Shown here: in pieces, positions 15,341 through 22,368 of the stretch
How positions within the stretch are numbered: the first letter of the stretch is position 1
Layout: each line of letters starts with the position of its first letter
Assembly: GCF_009659535.1 (NCBI RefSeq)
Contig: NZ_VJZZ01000012.1
Span: forward strand, 124,001 to 188,000
DNA: 64,000 bases
Source of the DNA: Aggregicoccus sp. 17bor-14
GTDB lineage: Bacteria; Myxococcota; Myxococcia; Myxococcales; Myxococcaceae
Direction: 5' to 3'
The notes under the pieces: model-generated
What the model saw: the letters and a program-made list of their open reading frames with translations, nothing else
Told to the model about the DNA's origin: nothing
Database searches by the model: none
Translations under genes and position numbers: made by a program

Positions 15341-17755
15341 CTACTTCTTCTGCGCCGCCATCCGAAGCTCTCGCTGGGCGTCGATGTGGTCCGGCTGCAG
15401 CGCCACGGTGCGCTGGAAGTGCTTCTGGGCCGCGGCGGCGTCCCCGCACAGCTTGGCGATGACGCCCAGGAAGTAGTGCGCCGGCACGCAGCGCTCGTTG
15501 CGCGAGAGCGTGAGCTGCAGGTCCTTGGAGGCCTCGGCCGCGCCCGCCTTCTTGTCCGCGAAGGTGAAGAAGCGCGCGTAGCCGCGCCAGGCGAAGAACT
15601 CGGGCTCGTCGGGGTTGAGGAGGATGGCCTGGTCGAGCATCTCCACGGCCTCGGGGAACTTGCGCGCCTTGACCAGGATGCAGCCCTTCTGGAACAGCTC
15701 CTCTGCCTTCAGGATGTTGCCGATGTCCACCTCGCCCTCGCCGCCGCTCTGGAGCACCTCGAGGTACTGGGCGCGCGAGGCGTCGTCGAGCAGCGTGCGG
15801 TAGGCCTCGCCGATGTAGCCGAAGACCTCGGACTTGAGCTTCTGCAGCTCGGCCGCCGCCCCCGCGGGCAGGGTGTCCGGGTGGTGCAGCTTGGCGAGCT
15901 TGAAGTAGGCGACCTTCACGCTGCTCGCGTCCGTCTTCTCGGAGAGCTCGAGCCGCTCGAAGTGGTTCTGCTTCTTGAGCGTGGCCGCGTACGCGCGCAG
16001 CTGCGCGAGCTCCGTCTCGGGCGAGAGCGTGGGCGGCGGAGGGCCGGGGCGGGCCGCCGCCGGCGCAGGTGCCGCGGCGGCGGGGGGCGGGCGGGGCGCC
16101 GCAGGCGGGGGCGCCGCGGCGGGCGGGGGCCGCGGGGCGGCAGCGGGCGCAGGCCGCGGGGCGGCGGCGGGAGGCGGGGGACGCGGGGCTGCCGCCTGAG
16201 CGGGCGGCGGAGCGCTGGCCTGCGGAGGCGGGCGAGGGGCTGCGCCGGGCGCCGCGGCGGCGGTGCCCGTGGGCGGCGTGGCGGTGCGCGCGGGGCGCGA
16301 GGGCAGCGCCGCGAAGCTCACCGCGTCCAGCTCGCGCAGGAGGAAGGCGAGGCGCAGCACGTGGTCCGCCTCCGCCGGGAGCTCCTGGGTGAGCTGCGCG
16401 AGCGAGCGCACGCCGTCGACGAAGCCCAGGGCGCGCACCTCCTGCGGCGTGAGGCGCAGGTCGCTCACCGGCACGAGGCCGCCGGACTTGAGCATGGGCA
16501 GCTCGAGCACCGGCTGCAGCCGCCGGCGCAGCTCGGGCGTGGGGATGCGGCGCACCAGGTCGCTGAGCACCGCCCAGCGGTTGCCGAGCGGCATCGCCTT
16601 GTGCGCGGGCAGCTCGCTCGGGACGAAGGTGAAGCGACCGCTCTCGGCGAGCAGCGCGCGCAGCAGCAGCCCCTGGGAGCGCTGCGCGAGCTGCGCGAAG
16701 GCGACGGCCGGGTTGAGCAGGCCGAGCCCGAAGAGCGCGCCCACCAGCTCCCCGCCGAAGCGCTCGCGCGCCTCCTCCGCCTGGGCCACCTGCGCGGCGC
16801 TCAGCAGCCCCGCGCTCACGAGGAAGGTGCCGAGCGCGTCGTCCGGGTGGCTCGAGGCCACGTGCTCGGGGGCGCCGCGCCGGAAGTGGAGCTCCAGCAC
16901 GCGGTCGGAGAGGTGCAGCGTGAGCAGCGCGCTCTGGTCGCCCGCAGCGGCGCGCGCGTAGAGGCGCACCGGCGAGAGCTCCGAGAGCTCCCCTTCCGCG
17001 GGCGGCAGCTCGACCGCGGGCTCCGCAGGCGCTGCGGCCGGCACCGCCGACGAGGAGGTGGTGCGAGGCGGCGCAGCGGCGGCCGCGGGTGAGGGAGGCG
17101 GCGCAGCAGGGCGCGGGGCTCCGGGCTCCGACGGGGTGAGCTTCGGGGGGCCGCCCGGAGGCGGCGCGGCGCCCGCGGGCGCGGTGGAGCCGGGGGCGCG
17201 GGTGCCGGGGCCCGCGATGGGTGCTCCGGCGGGCGCCGCGCGCGGAGCAGCGGTGCCCGGTGCAGGAGGTGCCGAGGGCGTCGGTGCTGCCGCAGGCGCT
17301 CGAGGCGCGGCTGCAGCGGTGCCCGGAGGAGGGGGAGCGTTCGCGGCCGCGGGCGTCGGCGGCGTGAGGACGGGCGGAGGCCGCGGCGCGGCGGTGGAGG
17401 CAGGCGACGGCGGTGCAGGTCGCGGCGGCGCCGCGGCGGCGGGCGGCGGCGCGATGACGGGCGGAGCGCTGGCGGCCGGCGGAGGCGGCGGCGCAATCAC
17501 CGATGCCGGCGGCGGCGGCGCGAGCGCGGGGCCGGAGCCCTGCGCGCCCGTGCCCCACTTCTCGCGCGGGATGAGCTCGCGCACCGCGGGGAAGTCGCCC
17601 GGCGGCGCGAACGCGGTGCCGTCCTCGGACACCTCGAGGCGGCCCTTCATCACGCCGTTGGCGAGGAGCAACTCGATCGTCGACGGCGCGAGGGGGCCCC
17701 AGACGGTGCCGGCCTCGTTGCGGACGAAAAACTGTCGGACTTCCCCTTCGGCCAT
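15341..17755 (-). CDS. large multidomain protein: GYF-like, DUF4388, J domain, TPR
   Basis: An 804-residue cytosolic protein. Residues about 5-65 ([20 protein letters not shown]) look like a GYF_2 domain. An Ala/Pro-rich linker follows (about 75-235), then a DUF4388 (PATAN) region (about 255-480, [20 protein letters not shown]). After a second Pro-rich linker come a J domain with the HPD motif intact ([12 protein letters not shown], about 610-630) and TPR-like repeats to the C-terminus ([20 protein letters not shown]). A J domain implies recruitment of a DnaK partner. The pairing of DUF4388 with a C-terminal TPR recurs in the gene at 61898-63466. Role unknown; scaffolding or polarity functions are guesses. 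Confidence 0.88.
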
Positions 17756-19851: not shown

Positions 19852-20646
19852 CTAGGGCCCCTCGAGCGCCGCGAGCCCCAGCAGGCTGAGGCAGCTGCTG
19901 TCCGCGGGGGGCAGCAGCGGCGGGTCGAAGCAGGTCACCTGCGCGTCGCTCACCTTGCACAGGCCGTAGGGGGTGCGCGCGCAGGCGGCGCGGCTGAAGG
20001 CCGAGGTGCAGGCGTAGCCACACACCGCCTGGCCGTCGCTCGAGCGGCACTGCTGCGGCGGGAGGCTGCGGCCCAGCGCGCAGATGGCGGAGGGGGCGGG
20101 GTCGAAGCAGAGCACCCGGCCCGCCTCGCTGCGGCACACGCCCGCGGGCGTCGCCGCGCACGCGACCCCCTCCGTGCCCGACACGCAGCCGTAGCCGCAC
20201 GCGAGCTTCTGGCCGTAGGCGCGGCACTCGGCCGCGGGCGTGGCGCTGCCCCAGCTCGCGTAGACGACGGGCGGCGGGTCGAAGCAGGTCACCTTGCCGC
20301 TGCGCGCCTGGCACACCCCCTTCGGCGTGCGCGCGCACTTCACGTCCCCGAAGTCCGCGGCGCAGTGGTAGCCGCAGGCGGCCTGGCCCTCGAGCCCCTT
20401 GCACTCGGGCTCGGGCAGGCTCGCGCCGTAGATGCGCACGAGGTAGGCGGGCGGGTCGAAGCACACCGCCTTGCCGTCCACCACCTTGCAGCGGCCCTGC
20501 GGCGTCTGGGCGCACTGGGTGCCGAAGGAGTCGGTGACGCAGCTGTAGCCGCACACTGTCTTGCTGTCCGCGGTGCGGCAGACGGGACCGCCGGGCTCGC
20601 CGGGGTTCGCGGAGAGCAGCGTGAGGAGCAGGGGGAGCAGGACCAC
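19852..20646 (-). CDS. secreted protein with four identical-spacing six-Cys modules
   Basis: A 264-residue protein with an N-terminal signal (VLLPLLLTLLSA). After it come four modules, each with cysteines spaced C-x8-C-x3-C-x8-C-x7-C-x8-C and followed by FDP, at about residues 23-62, 82-121, 141-180 and 200-239. The linkers are all 19 residues, giving an exact 59-residue period. Shared residues include CGYxC, CAxTPxGxC and VxCFDPP. One further Cys sits in linker 3 and one near the C-terminus. Three disulfides per module is the natural reading. I do not recognise the family. Divergent from the TauE-type gene. Confidence 0.85.
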   Translation of the reverse strand: MVLLPLLLTLLSANPGEPGGPVCRTADSKTVCGYSCVTDSFGTQCAQTPQGRCKVVDGKAVCFDPPAYLVRIYGASLPEPECKGLEGQAACGYHCAADFGDVKCARTPKGVCQARSGKVTCFDPPPVVYASWGSATPAAECRAYGQKLACGYGCVSGTEGVACAATPAGVCRSEAGRVLCFDPAPSAICALGRSLPPQQCRSSDGQAVCGYACTSAFSRAACARTPYGLCKVSDAQVTCFDPPLLPPADSSCLSLLGLAALEGP

Positions 20647-20762: not shown

Positions 20763-21533
20763 TTGCACGCCCTCGCGCCGCTCCAGCTCCTGCTGCTGTG
20801 CTTTGCCGCCCTGTGCGCAGGGATCGTGGACGCCATCGCGGGAGGGGGCGGGCTCATCACCCTGCCCGTGCTGCTCTCCACCGGGCTTCCGCCGCACCTC
20901 GCGCTGGGCACGAACAAGGGCCAGAGCGTGTTCGGCTCCTTCGCCGCCCTGGTGCGCTTCAGCCGAGGCGGCATGGTGGACGGAGGGCTCGCGCGCTGGA
21001 CCTTCCCGCTGGGCCTGGTGGGCTCGCTGCTGGGCGCCGCGCTCGTGCTCGCGCTCAAGCCCGAGGTGCTCAAGCCGCTCGTGCTCGTGCTGCTCATCGC
21101 GGTGGCCGTGTTCCTCACCTTCCGCAGGGCGCCCCCGCCCGGCGGCCACCCGCAGCCCCCGCGCCAGCGGCTGCTCGCCATCGGTGCGCTCGTGGCGCTC
21201 GCCATCGGCGCCTACGACGGCTTCTTCGGCCCCGGCACCGGCACCTTCCTCATCATCGCGTTCTCGGGCCTGCTCGGGCGCACCCTGAGCCGTGCGAGCG
21301 CGGACGCGAAGGTGGTGAACTTCGCGTCGAACCTCGCGGCCGTGGGGCTGTTCGCCAGCCGCGGTGTCGTGCTCTGGCAGTACGCACTTCCCATGGCTGC
21401 CGCCCAGTTCACCGGCGCGTGGATCGGGGCACACCTCGCCGTGCGCGGCGGGGACCGGTTCGTGCGCATCGTCGTGCTCGGCGTGGTGCTCGCGCTGGTG
21501 CTGAAGCTCGGGCACGACGTGCTGGCGGGGTAG
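20763..21533 (+). CDS. TSUP (TauE/SafE) family transporter
   Basis: A 256-residue inner-membrane protein of about eight helices. The family hallmark is the glycine-rich pair: CAGIVDAIAGGGGLITLPVLL with LALGTNKGQSVFGSFAAL in repeat 1, and GAYDGFFGPGTGTFLIIAF with DAKVVNFASNLAAV in repeat 2. Members export sulfite, sulfoacetate or related anions. The start is a TTG at 20763; no ATG or GTG in frame precedes the family N-terminus, so the start is moderately uncertain. The 116-base gap to the divergent Cys-module gene should hold both promoters. Confidence 0.9.
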   Translation: MHALAPLQLLLLCFAALCAGIVDAIAGGGGLITLPVLLSTGLPPHLALGTNKGQSVFGSFAALVRFSRGGMVDGGLARWTFPLGLVGSLLGAALVLALKPEVLKPLVLVLLIAVAVFLTFRRAPPPGGHPQPPRQRLLAIGALVALAIGAYDGFFGPGTGTFLIIAFSGLLGRTLSRASADAKVVNFASNLAAVGLFASRGVVLWQYALPMAAAQFTGAWIGAHLAVRGGDRFVRIVVLGVVLALVLKLGHDVLAG

Positions 21534-21852: not shown

Positions 21853-22368
21853 CTACGAGAGGACGACGAGCATCCCGTGGCCCTGCGCGCTCACGCGGGC
21901 GAGGAAGGTCTTGAGCTCGGCGAAGTAGCTGAGCACGTAGCCGAGCGGGTCCTTCTCCCCCTGCTGGCCGTCCCAGATGTCCGGGTAGATCTCCAGCATG
22001 CGCATGCGCTCGGGGTCGAAGCGCGAGCGCAGCGCCGCGCCGTCCACGGGCGCGAGCGCCTGGGCGATGGCGCGCACGCCCGCGGCGTCGAAGCAGCGCG
22101 CCGGGCCGTAGCCCAGGTCCACCTCGCCCACCTCGCGCCCGCCGCGCTCGAGGAAGTCCAGGGGCGCCTGGCCCTCCACCGCGGTGCCGGTGAGCAGGAA
22201 GTGGATGCCGTGCCAGGCCTCGTCCAGGTCCAGCTCGAGGAAGGCGGCGCCCGAAGCGTCACCGAAGTCCTCCTCGTCCTCGAGGAAGGCCTCCAGCTGC
22301 TCGGGGTCCTTCAGCAGCGCGCGCAGCTGGGCATCCGTGGCGCTGCGCAGGTTGCAGATGATCGCCAT
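21853..22368 (-). CDS. DUF1877 (YfbM-like) protein
   Basis: A 171-residue cytosolic protein. The segment FLELDLDEAWHGIHFLLTGTA is diagnostic of the DUF1877/YfbM family, with GPARCFDAAGVRAIAQAL and the C-terminal LKTFLARVSAQGHGMLVVLS as further family traits. Biochemical function is unknown. It starts 13 bases after the methylmalonyl-CoA mutase stop, so it is probably the last gene of that operon, though a metabolic link is not established. Confidence 0.85.
   Translation of the reverse strand: MAIICNLRSATDAQLRALLKDPEQLEAFLEDEEDFGDASGAAFLELDLDEAWHGIHFLLTGTAVEGQAPLDFLERGGREVGEVDLGYGPARCFDAAGVRAIAQALAPVDGAALRSRFDPERMRMLEIYPDIWDGQQGEKDPLGYVLSYFAELKTFLARVSAQGHGMLVVLS

Follow-up and report, generated by a model that had tools for sequence, protein, structure and literature searches.

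The window, by which the entire analyzed stretch of 64,000 nucleotides is meant, encodes a protein built of four six-Cys modules, each of which is predicted to fold into three short β-hairpins closed by disulfides. This tri-hairpin domain is absent from the copies of Pfam, NCBIfam, and PDB that were searched. The gene and the parts of its product, all on the reverse strand, are as follows.

19852..20646, reverse strand: whole gene, 264 amino acids, GTG start, four tri-hairpin Cys modules
20587..20646, reverse strand: N-terminus, residues 1-20, short and hydrophobic; a probable Sec signal peptide, to judge by the clearer ones of relatives
20461..20580, reverse strand: module 1, residues 23-62, three C-x8-C hairpins, from the sequence and AlphaFold2
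20419..20448, reverse strand: helix of linker 1, residues 67-76, from DSSP on the model
20284..20403, reverse strand: module 2, residues 82-121, also modeled by itself with AlphaFold2 (pLDDT 94.8)
20242..20271, reverse strand: helix of linker 2, residues 126-135, from the whole-protein model
20107..20226, reverse strand: module 3, residues 141-180, from the sequence and the whole-protein model
20065..20094, reverse strand: helix of linker 3, residues 185-194, from the model; holds the invariant extra Cys189
19930..20049, reverse strand: module 4, residues 200-239, from the sequence and the whole-protein model
19864..19899, reverse strand: C-terminal helix, residues 250-261, from the model; holds the invariant extra Cys252

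The open frame at positions 19855-20646 of the reverse strand runs without a stop for all 264 amino acids and is closed by a stop codon at positions 19852-19854. Every one of the four modules in the translated protein has exactly the form C-x8-C-x3-C-x8-C-x7-C-x8-C. The modules start at residues 23, 82, 141, and 200 (periods of 59/59/59, linkers of 19/19/19), and the translation thus confirmed the preliminary description of four exact six-Cys modules with the spacing 8-3-8-7-8, a 59-residue period, and equal 19-residue linkers. Absent from that description are two Cys residues beyond the modules, Cys189 in the third linker and Cys252 at the C-terminus. All 26 Cys residues (24 in the modules plus these two) are invariant in 19 of 19 aligned four-module proteins, and Cys189 and Cys252 would probably pair to form an extra disulfide around module 4. 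The possibility of a spurious reading frame in GC-rich DNA was ruled out by the invariant Cys residues and by dN values well below dS: in all 8 pairs measured, dN was lower than dS (for example, 0.019/0.18, 0.010/0.13, 0.034/0.34, and 0.339/0.80), the weakest pair being 0.087/0.18.

The regularity of the modules had originally been attributed to either strong structural constraint or recent duplication. In pairwise comparisons, the modules of the window protein have only 15 to 19 of 40 residues identical, and when 20 four-module proteins are compared, 77 of 80 modules have their best match in another protein at the corresponding index. These two figures rule out a recent duplication of modules, whereas structural constraint is supported. 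The old divergence of the modules, taken together with dN being lower than dS, indicates that they were duplicated long ago and have since been maintained by selection.

Whole-protein matches were found in 24 of 60 related genomes. The four modules are all retained in orthologs from 12 further genomes (52 to 62% identity) and from four more (41 to 45% identity). Across the phylum, a profile of the module matched 88 of 195 genomes, comprising 81 of at least 96 from the family of the window (a minimum, the 87 negative genomes not being listed by name) and 7 among the remaining genomes. In a related, larger phylum, matches were detected in 22 of 377 sampled genomes, with up to 19 candidates scored per genome. 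A scan of the genomes of 84,980 species with tight peptide patterns, which is insensitive to divergent members, returned 12 loci, titled Myxococcales, Myxococcaceae, Citreicoccus, Deltaproteobacteria, Proteobacteria, or simply “bacterium.” The genome of the window carries a single gene of this family, which accounts for its four module matches. In many relatives there are seven matches, which in the cases inspected represent a four-module gene plus a three-module paralog. This paralog (L031-L036), with 19-residue linkers, is found in many family members and is absent from the window's genome.

The N-terminus of the window protein, MVLLPLLLTLLSANPG, begins with a GTG start codon and is short, hydrophobic, and devoid of positive charge. 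Judged by eye, several relatives have clearer Sec-type signal peptides. Its earlier characterization as a secreted protein is reasonable in light of these relatives, although its own N-terminus, with an atypical signal peptide, argues for export only weakly.

Structure prediction, which the preliminary description had proposed as a check, produced a confident three-hairpin module. When module 2 of the window protein was folded by AlphaFold2 with 96 aligned modules, the model (pLDDT 94.8) consisted of three short β-hairpins with strands at positions 2-5/8-11, 13-18/21-25, and 31-35/38-42. In this single-module model, the Cys residues at 2/11, 15/24, and 32/41 are located opposite each other across two-residue turns, as read from the strand table rather than from coordinates. 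In two-residue hairpins, residues in such a register occupy a non-hydrogen-bonded site, a favorable place for a disulfide. The model of the whole protein (pLDDT 89.5, pTM 0.83) contains these hairpins four times; within each module, a long strand runs through hairpins 1 and 2, and each linker contains a helix of approximately ten residues. The strand registers and the paired loss or gain of Cys residues among relatives (see below) point to the pairing C1-C2, C3-C4, and C5-C6; this fold, with a disulfide in every hairpin, is highly probable on the strength of the models. The Cys residues could in principle bind a metal instead of forming disulfides, as the C-x3-C spacing is compatible with chelation, but this is very improbable given the Sec-type signal peptides of the relatives, the modeled placement of the Cys pairs across two-residue turns, and the lack of a match to any known metal-binding Cys family in Pfam or NCBIfam.

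The six-Cys module, initially singled out as the repeating unit, is real, but the evolutionary unit, as judged from the sequences of the relatives, is the C-x8-C hairpin. The consensus of the relatives, CxxxYGxxxC GYx CxxxYGxxxC AxTPxGx CxxxYGxxxC, contains the hairpin unit C-x3-(Y/F)-G-x3-C three times, and the window protein shares the features that define the tri-hairpin family, namely C-x8/9-C hairpins joined by CG[YFW]xC and a 7-residue link. The hairpin is assigned as the unit because relatives contain chains of four hairpins (L098, L119, L120, and L128) or five (L030 and L122) and because Cys residues are lost in pairs. There is also one extra hairpin in L092, and L132/L144 have two hairpins, possibly a remnant. 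In three paralogs from one genome (L105, L155, and L156), hairpin 1 of module 2 carries neither of its Cys residues, the second of them being replaced by Phe. No hairpin retaining only one of its two Cys residues was seen among the variant cases listed.

Some of these relatives have additional regions. The four-hairpin version in L098, L119, and L120 (and partly in L123) is preceded by a conserved RGYREGY-like stretch, and proteins of the L098/L119/L120 type may form a subfamily of their own, distinguished by a different N-terminal part. In L101, a further tandem Cys repeat (motif RGWxPSYLSNC), which by eye is unrelated to the hairpin module, comes after one module.

The suggestion that the module may be a new disulfide-rich domain has stood up to database comparisons. 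The window protein matched 0 families in Pfam-A and no family in NCBIfam at E values of up to 10; no known Cys-rich Pfam domain, such as EGF, granulin, or DUF4215, was recognized, and homologs with the same spacing are many. Three relatives had only sub-cutoff matches in Pfam-A (best E value, 0.064) and nothing beyond such matches in NCBIfam. No match to the window protein was found among PDB sequences; the single PDB match of the module profile, an asparaginase (E value, 1.3), was taken as a chance one. Foldseek comparisons with the PDB at E values of ≤0.001 gave no match for one module or for the whole protein, which by itself is no proof of a new fold, and VIA-align found none of Foldseek's candidates at Z ≥ 2 for either query. 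There were no matches to viral structures at E values of ≤0.001 and none in IMG/VR with one relative as the query; a mobile-element or phage origin was rejected, one relative used as the query having no phage match. In PHROGs, there was no match for the window protein and a best E value of 0.0091 for a relative. A search of plasmids yielded one weak match, in Priestia (23.8% identity; E value, 3e-3). Searches of the open-licence literature, including that on myxobacterial Cys-rich secreted proteins and on concerted hairpin repeats, listed no paper on the tri-hairpin family.

Granulins (epithelins) also consist of short, stacked β-hairpins that are fixed by disulfides, but these disulfides link neighboring hairpins and include CC pairs, whereas each hairpin of the window protein appears to be self-closed and neither Pfam nor Foldseek returned a match. 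The SCREPs (secreted cysteine-rich repeat proteins) of animal venoms (PMC6262176) resemble the window protein by description, being secreted and built from repeated disulfide-rich domains.

The hairpin tips differ in their behavior between relatives with fixed and with variable linkers, a division that is our own and was made first by period and then by a linker length of 18 to 20. In the variable-linker relatives, one tip is repeated in most or all hairpins of a given protein, and the tips differ between proteins: NYG in L029, EYGQ/K in L055, AGIN/AGAN in L094, AGLN in L095, YNG in L093, DNYG in L105, and RFGE in L155. After the removal of rows more than 60% alike, which reduced the set from 60 to 36 proteins, the agreement at tip positions x3-x6 in the 17 variable-linker proteins was 0.576 across the hairpin positions of one protein versus 0.377 for a given position in different proteins; the former value was reached in 0 of 500 shuffles, which ignore the relatedness of the proteins. 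The flanking positions x1, x7, and x8 showed the reverse, with 0.168 within a protein versus 0.319 between proteins at the same position. Loop length, compared after the same filtering (76 proteins reduced to 51), is single-valued in 41 of the 51 proteins (all 8 in 34, all 9 in 7) and mixed in 10, versus at most 22 single-valued proteins in 2000 shuffles, which likewise ignore relatedness; this tally includes three paralogs from a single genome as separate proteins. In the fixed-linker group, to which the window protein belongs, tip agreement was 0.169 within versus 0.161 between proteins and was reached in 14 of 500 shuffles. The window protein lacks the tip uniformity of its variable-linker relatives. 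A further observation concerns the genome of L155 and L156 (G420), in which the three paralogs lacking both Cys residues of hairpin 1 in module 2, two of them ∼3 kb apart, each have a uniform tip of their own (DNYG; RFGE; DNSG/DNAG).

Identical tandem units are a common product of repeat amplification or gene conversion, and if the uniform tips of the relatives were such young copies, they would be uninformative with regard to function. Codon usage is slightly in line with this explanation: same-residue tips use the same codon in 853 of 1522 cases (0.56, versus 0.51 expected from the proteins' own usage), and the excess is clear in the exceptional L156 (0.77 versus 0.55 expected). However, residues only two or three codons away from the tip remain specific to the hairpin position, and identical tips are spelled with different codons; in L094 all 8 copies differ in spelling, as do all 6 in L155. 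Given these spellings, young duplication is insufficient for most of the tip uniformity, and amplification as the general explanation is unlikely; the uniformity is most simply read as selection for alike tips. Under such selection it is possible, if somewhat doubtful, that the hairpin arrays are matched to a repetitive ligand, with the tips (NYG, EYGQ, AGIN/AGAN, AGLN, YNG, DNYG, RFGE, and DNSG) kept alike and changed together, even between paralogs, while the framework stays fixed; the four-module branch of the window would then be the one in which the tips have become individual.

The chances are about even that the window protein is an exported, rigid, rod-like scaffold of tri-hairpin domains that binds a ligand through its hairpin tips. 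A binding function of the tips, for which we infer both their orientation and a ligand, is put forward tentatively, and the nature of the ligand, e.g., an envelope polysaccharide, is a guess. According to this proposal, the protein would be exported, oxidized, and folded as a stiff row of closed hairpins, in which a single strand would run through the CGYxC link from hairpin 1 into hairpin 2, the A-x-T-P-x-G-x link would connect hairpin 2 to hairpin 3, and the four domains would be stacked with short helices between them. The resulting multivalent binding or spacing scaffold would be periplasmic or extracellular, with the tips projecting and making contacts. The variable-linker proteins would make the same contact many times over, a good fit to a repetitive ligand; the hairpins of the window protein would each be individual, fitting either one particular partner or a role in structure alone. 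For the window protein, binding through the tips is less certain, since its tips are non-uniform and its framework is better conserved than its hairpins; a plain spacer fits too. The protein has no resemblance to an enzyme. If the scaffold proposal is right, most members sampled from one bacterial family, along with scattered ones from related groups, share a compact disulfide fold whose natural arrays, in which hairpin tips have been swapped as a set, would allow a clean test of multivalent β-hairpin recognition and offer a possible engineering scaffold.

The protein could also be a passive stalk or spacer, stiffened by disulfides and binding no ligand itself, in which even spacing serves rigidity only; this would account for the better conservation, within the four-module family, of the framework (GYx, AxTPxG) and the linkers than of most hairpins and tips. 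A rigid extracellular stalk has been proposed for the Cys-rich repeats of TraA, which have three invariant and two marginally conserved Cys residues per repeat (PMC3325183). TraA (repeat family TIGR04201) is the nearest case in the literature searched and resembles the window protein in being a myxobacterial exported protein with tandem Cys-rich repeats. It differs from it in having a PA14 domain and MYXO-CTERM, both of which the window protein lacks, ending after its C-terminal helix; TIGR04201 was not detected in the window protein by NCBIfam searches at E values of up to 10. The window protein has no other domain that a stalk could present, and a stalk has no need for identical tips, yet the tips are uniform within variable-linker proteins and not between them. 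A stalk is, on balance, rather unlikely.

The gene neighborhood was compared in 20 fetched regions, and the following genes of the window recur.

20763..21533, forward strand: TauE/SafE family (PF01925) gene, the divergent neighbor, adjoining the Cys gene in 14 of 20 regions
21853..22368, reverse strand: DUF1877 protein, beyond the TauE/SafE gene in the same 14 of 20 regions
15341..17740, reverse strand: DUF4388 + DnaJ + TPR protein, downstream in the same 14 of 20 regions; the start of the reading frame is provisional

The six other regions all come from the more distant group with 40-47% identity and lack the TauE/SafE, DUF1877, and DUF4388-DnaJ-TPR neighbors. None of these neighbors points to a ligand. 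Their order has a bearing on a possible role of the protein as a secreted antimicrobial, prey-directed, or inhibitory factor. Such roles are frequent among Cys-rich secreted proteins, and myxobacteria are predators; however, the window's genome has a single gene of the family (four module matches in one gene), gene order is conserved in 14 of 20 regions, and the gene is under purifying selection. This combination looks like that of a core gene rather than a participant in an arms race, making an antimicrobial role very unlikely.

At 38 loci of other subfamilies, no recurring neighbor of likely meaning was found. Besides the family itself, the recurring clusters there, assigned by eye, were serine/threonine kinase-like (6 loci) and response-regulator-like (4 loci) proteins, which were set aside as clues, being common in such genomes. 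In the window only, genes for a glyoxalase-like protein and an alpha/beta-hydrolase are located between the Cys gene and the DnaJ gene. The DUF4388 + DnaJ + TPR protein itself (15341-17740, reverse strand) contains a long Pro/Ala-rich part.
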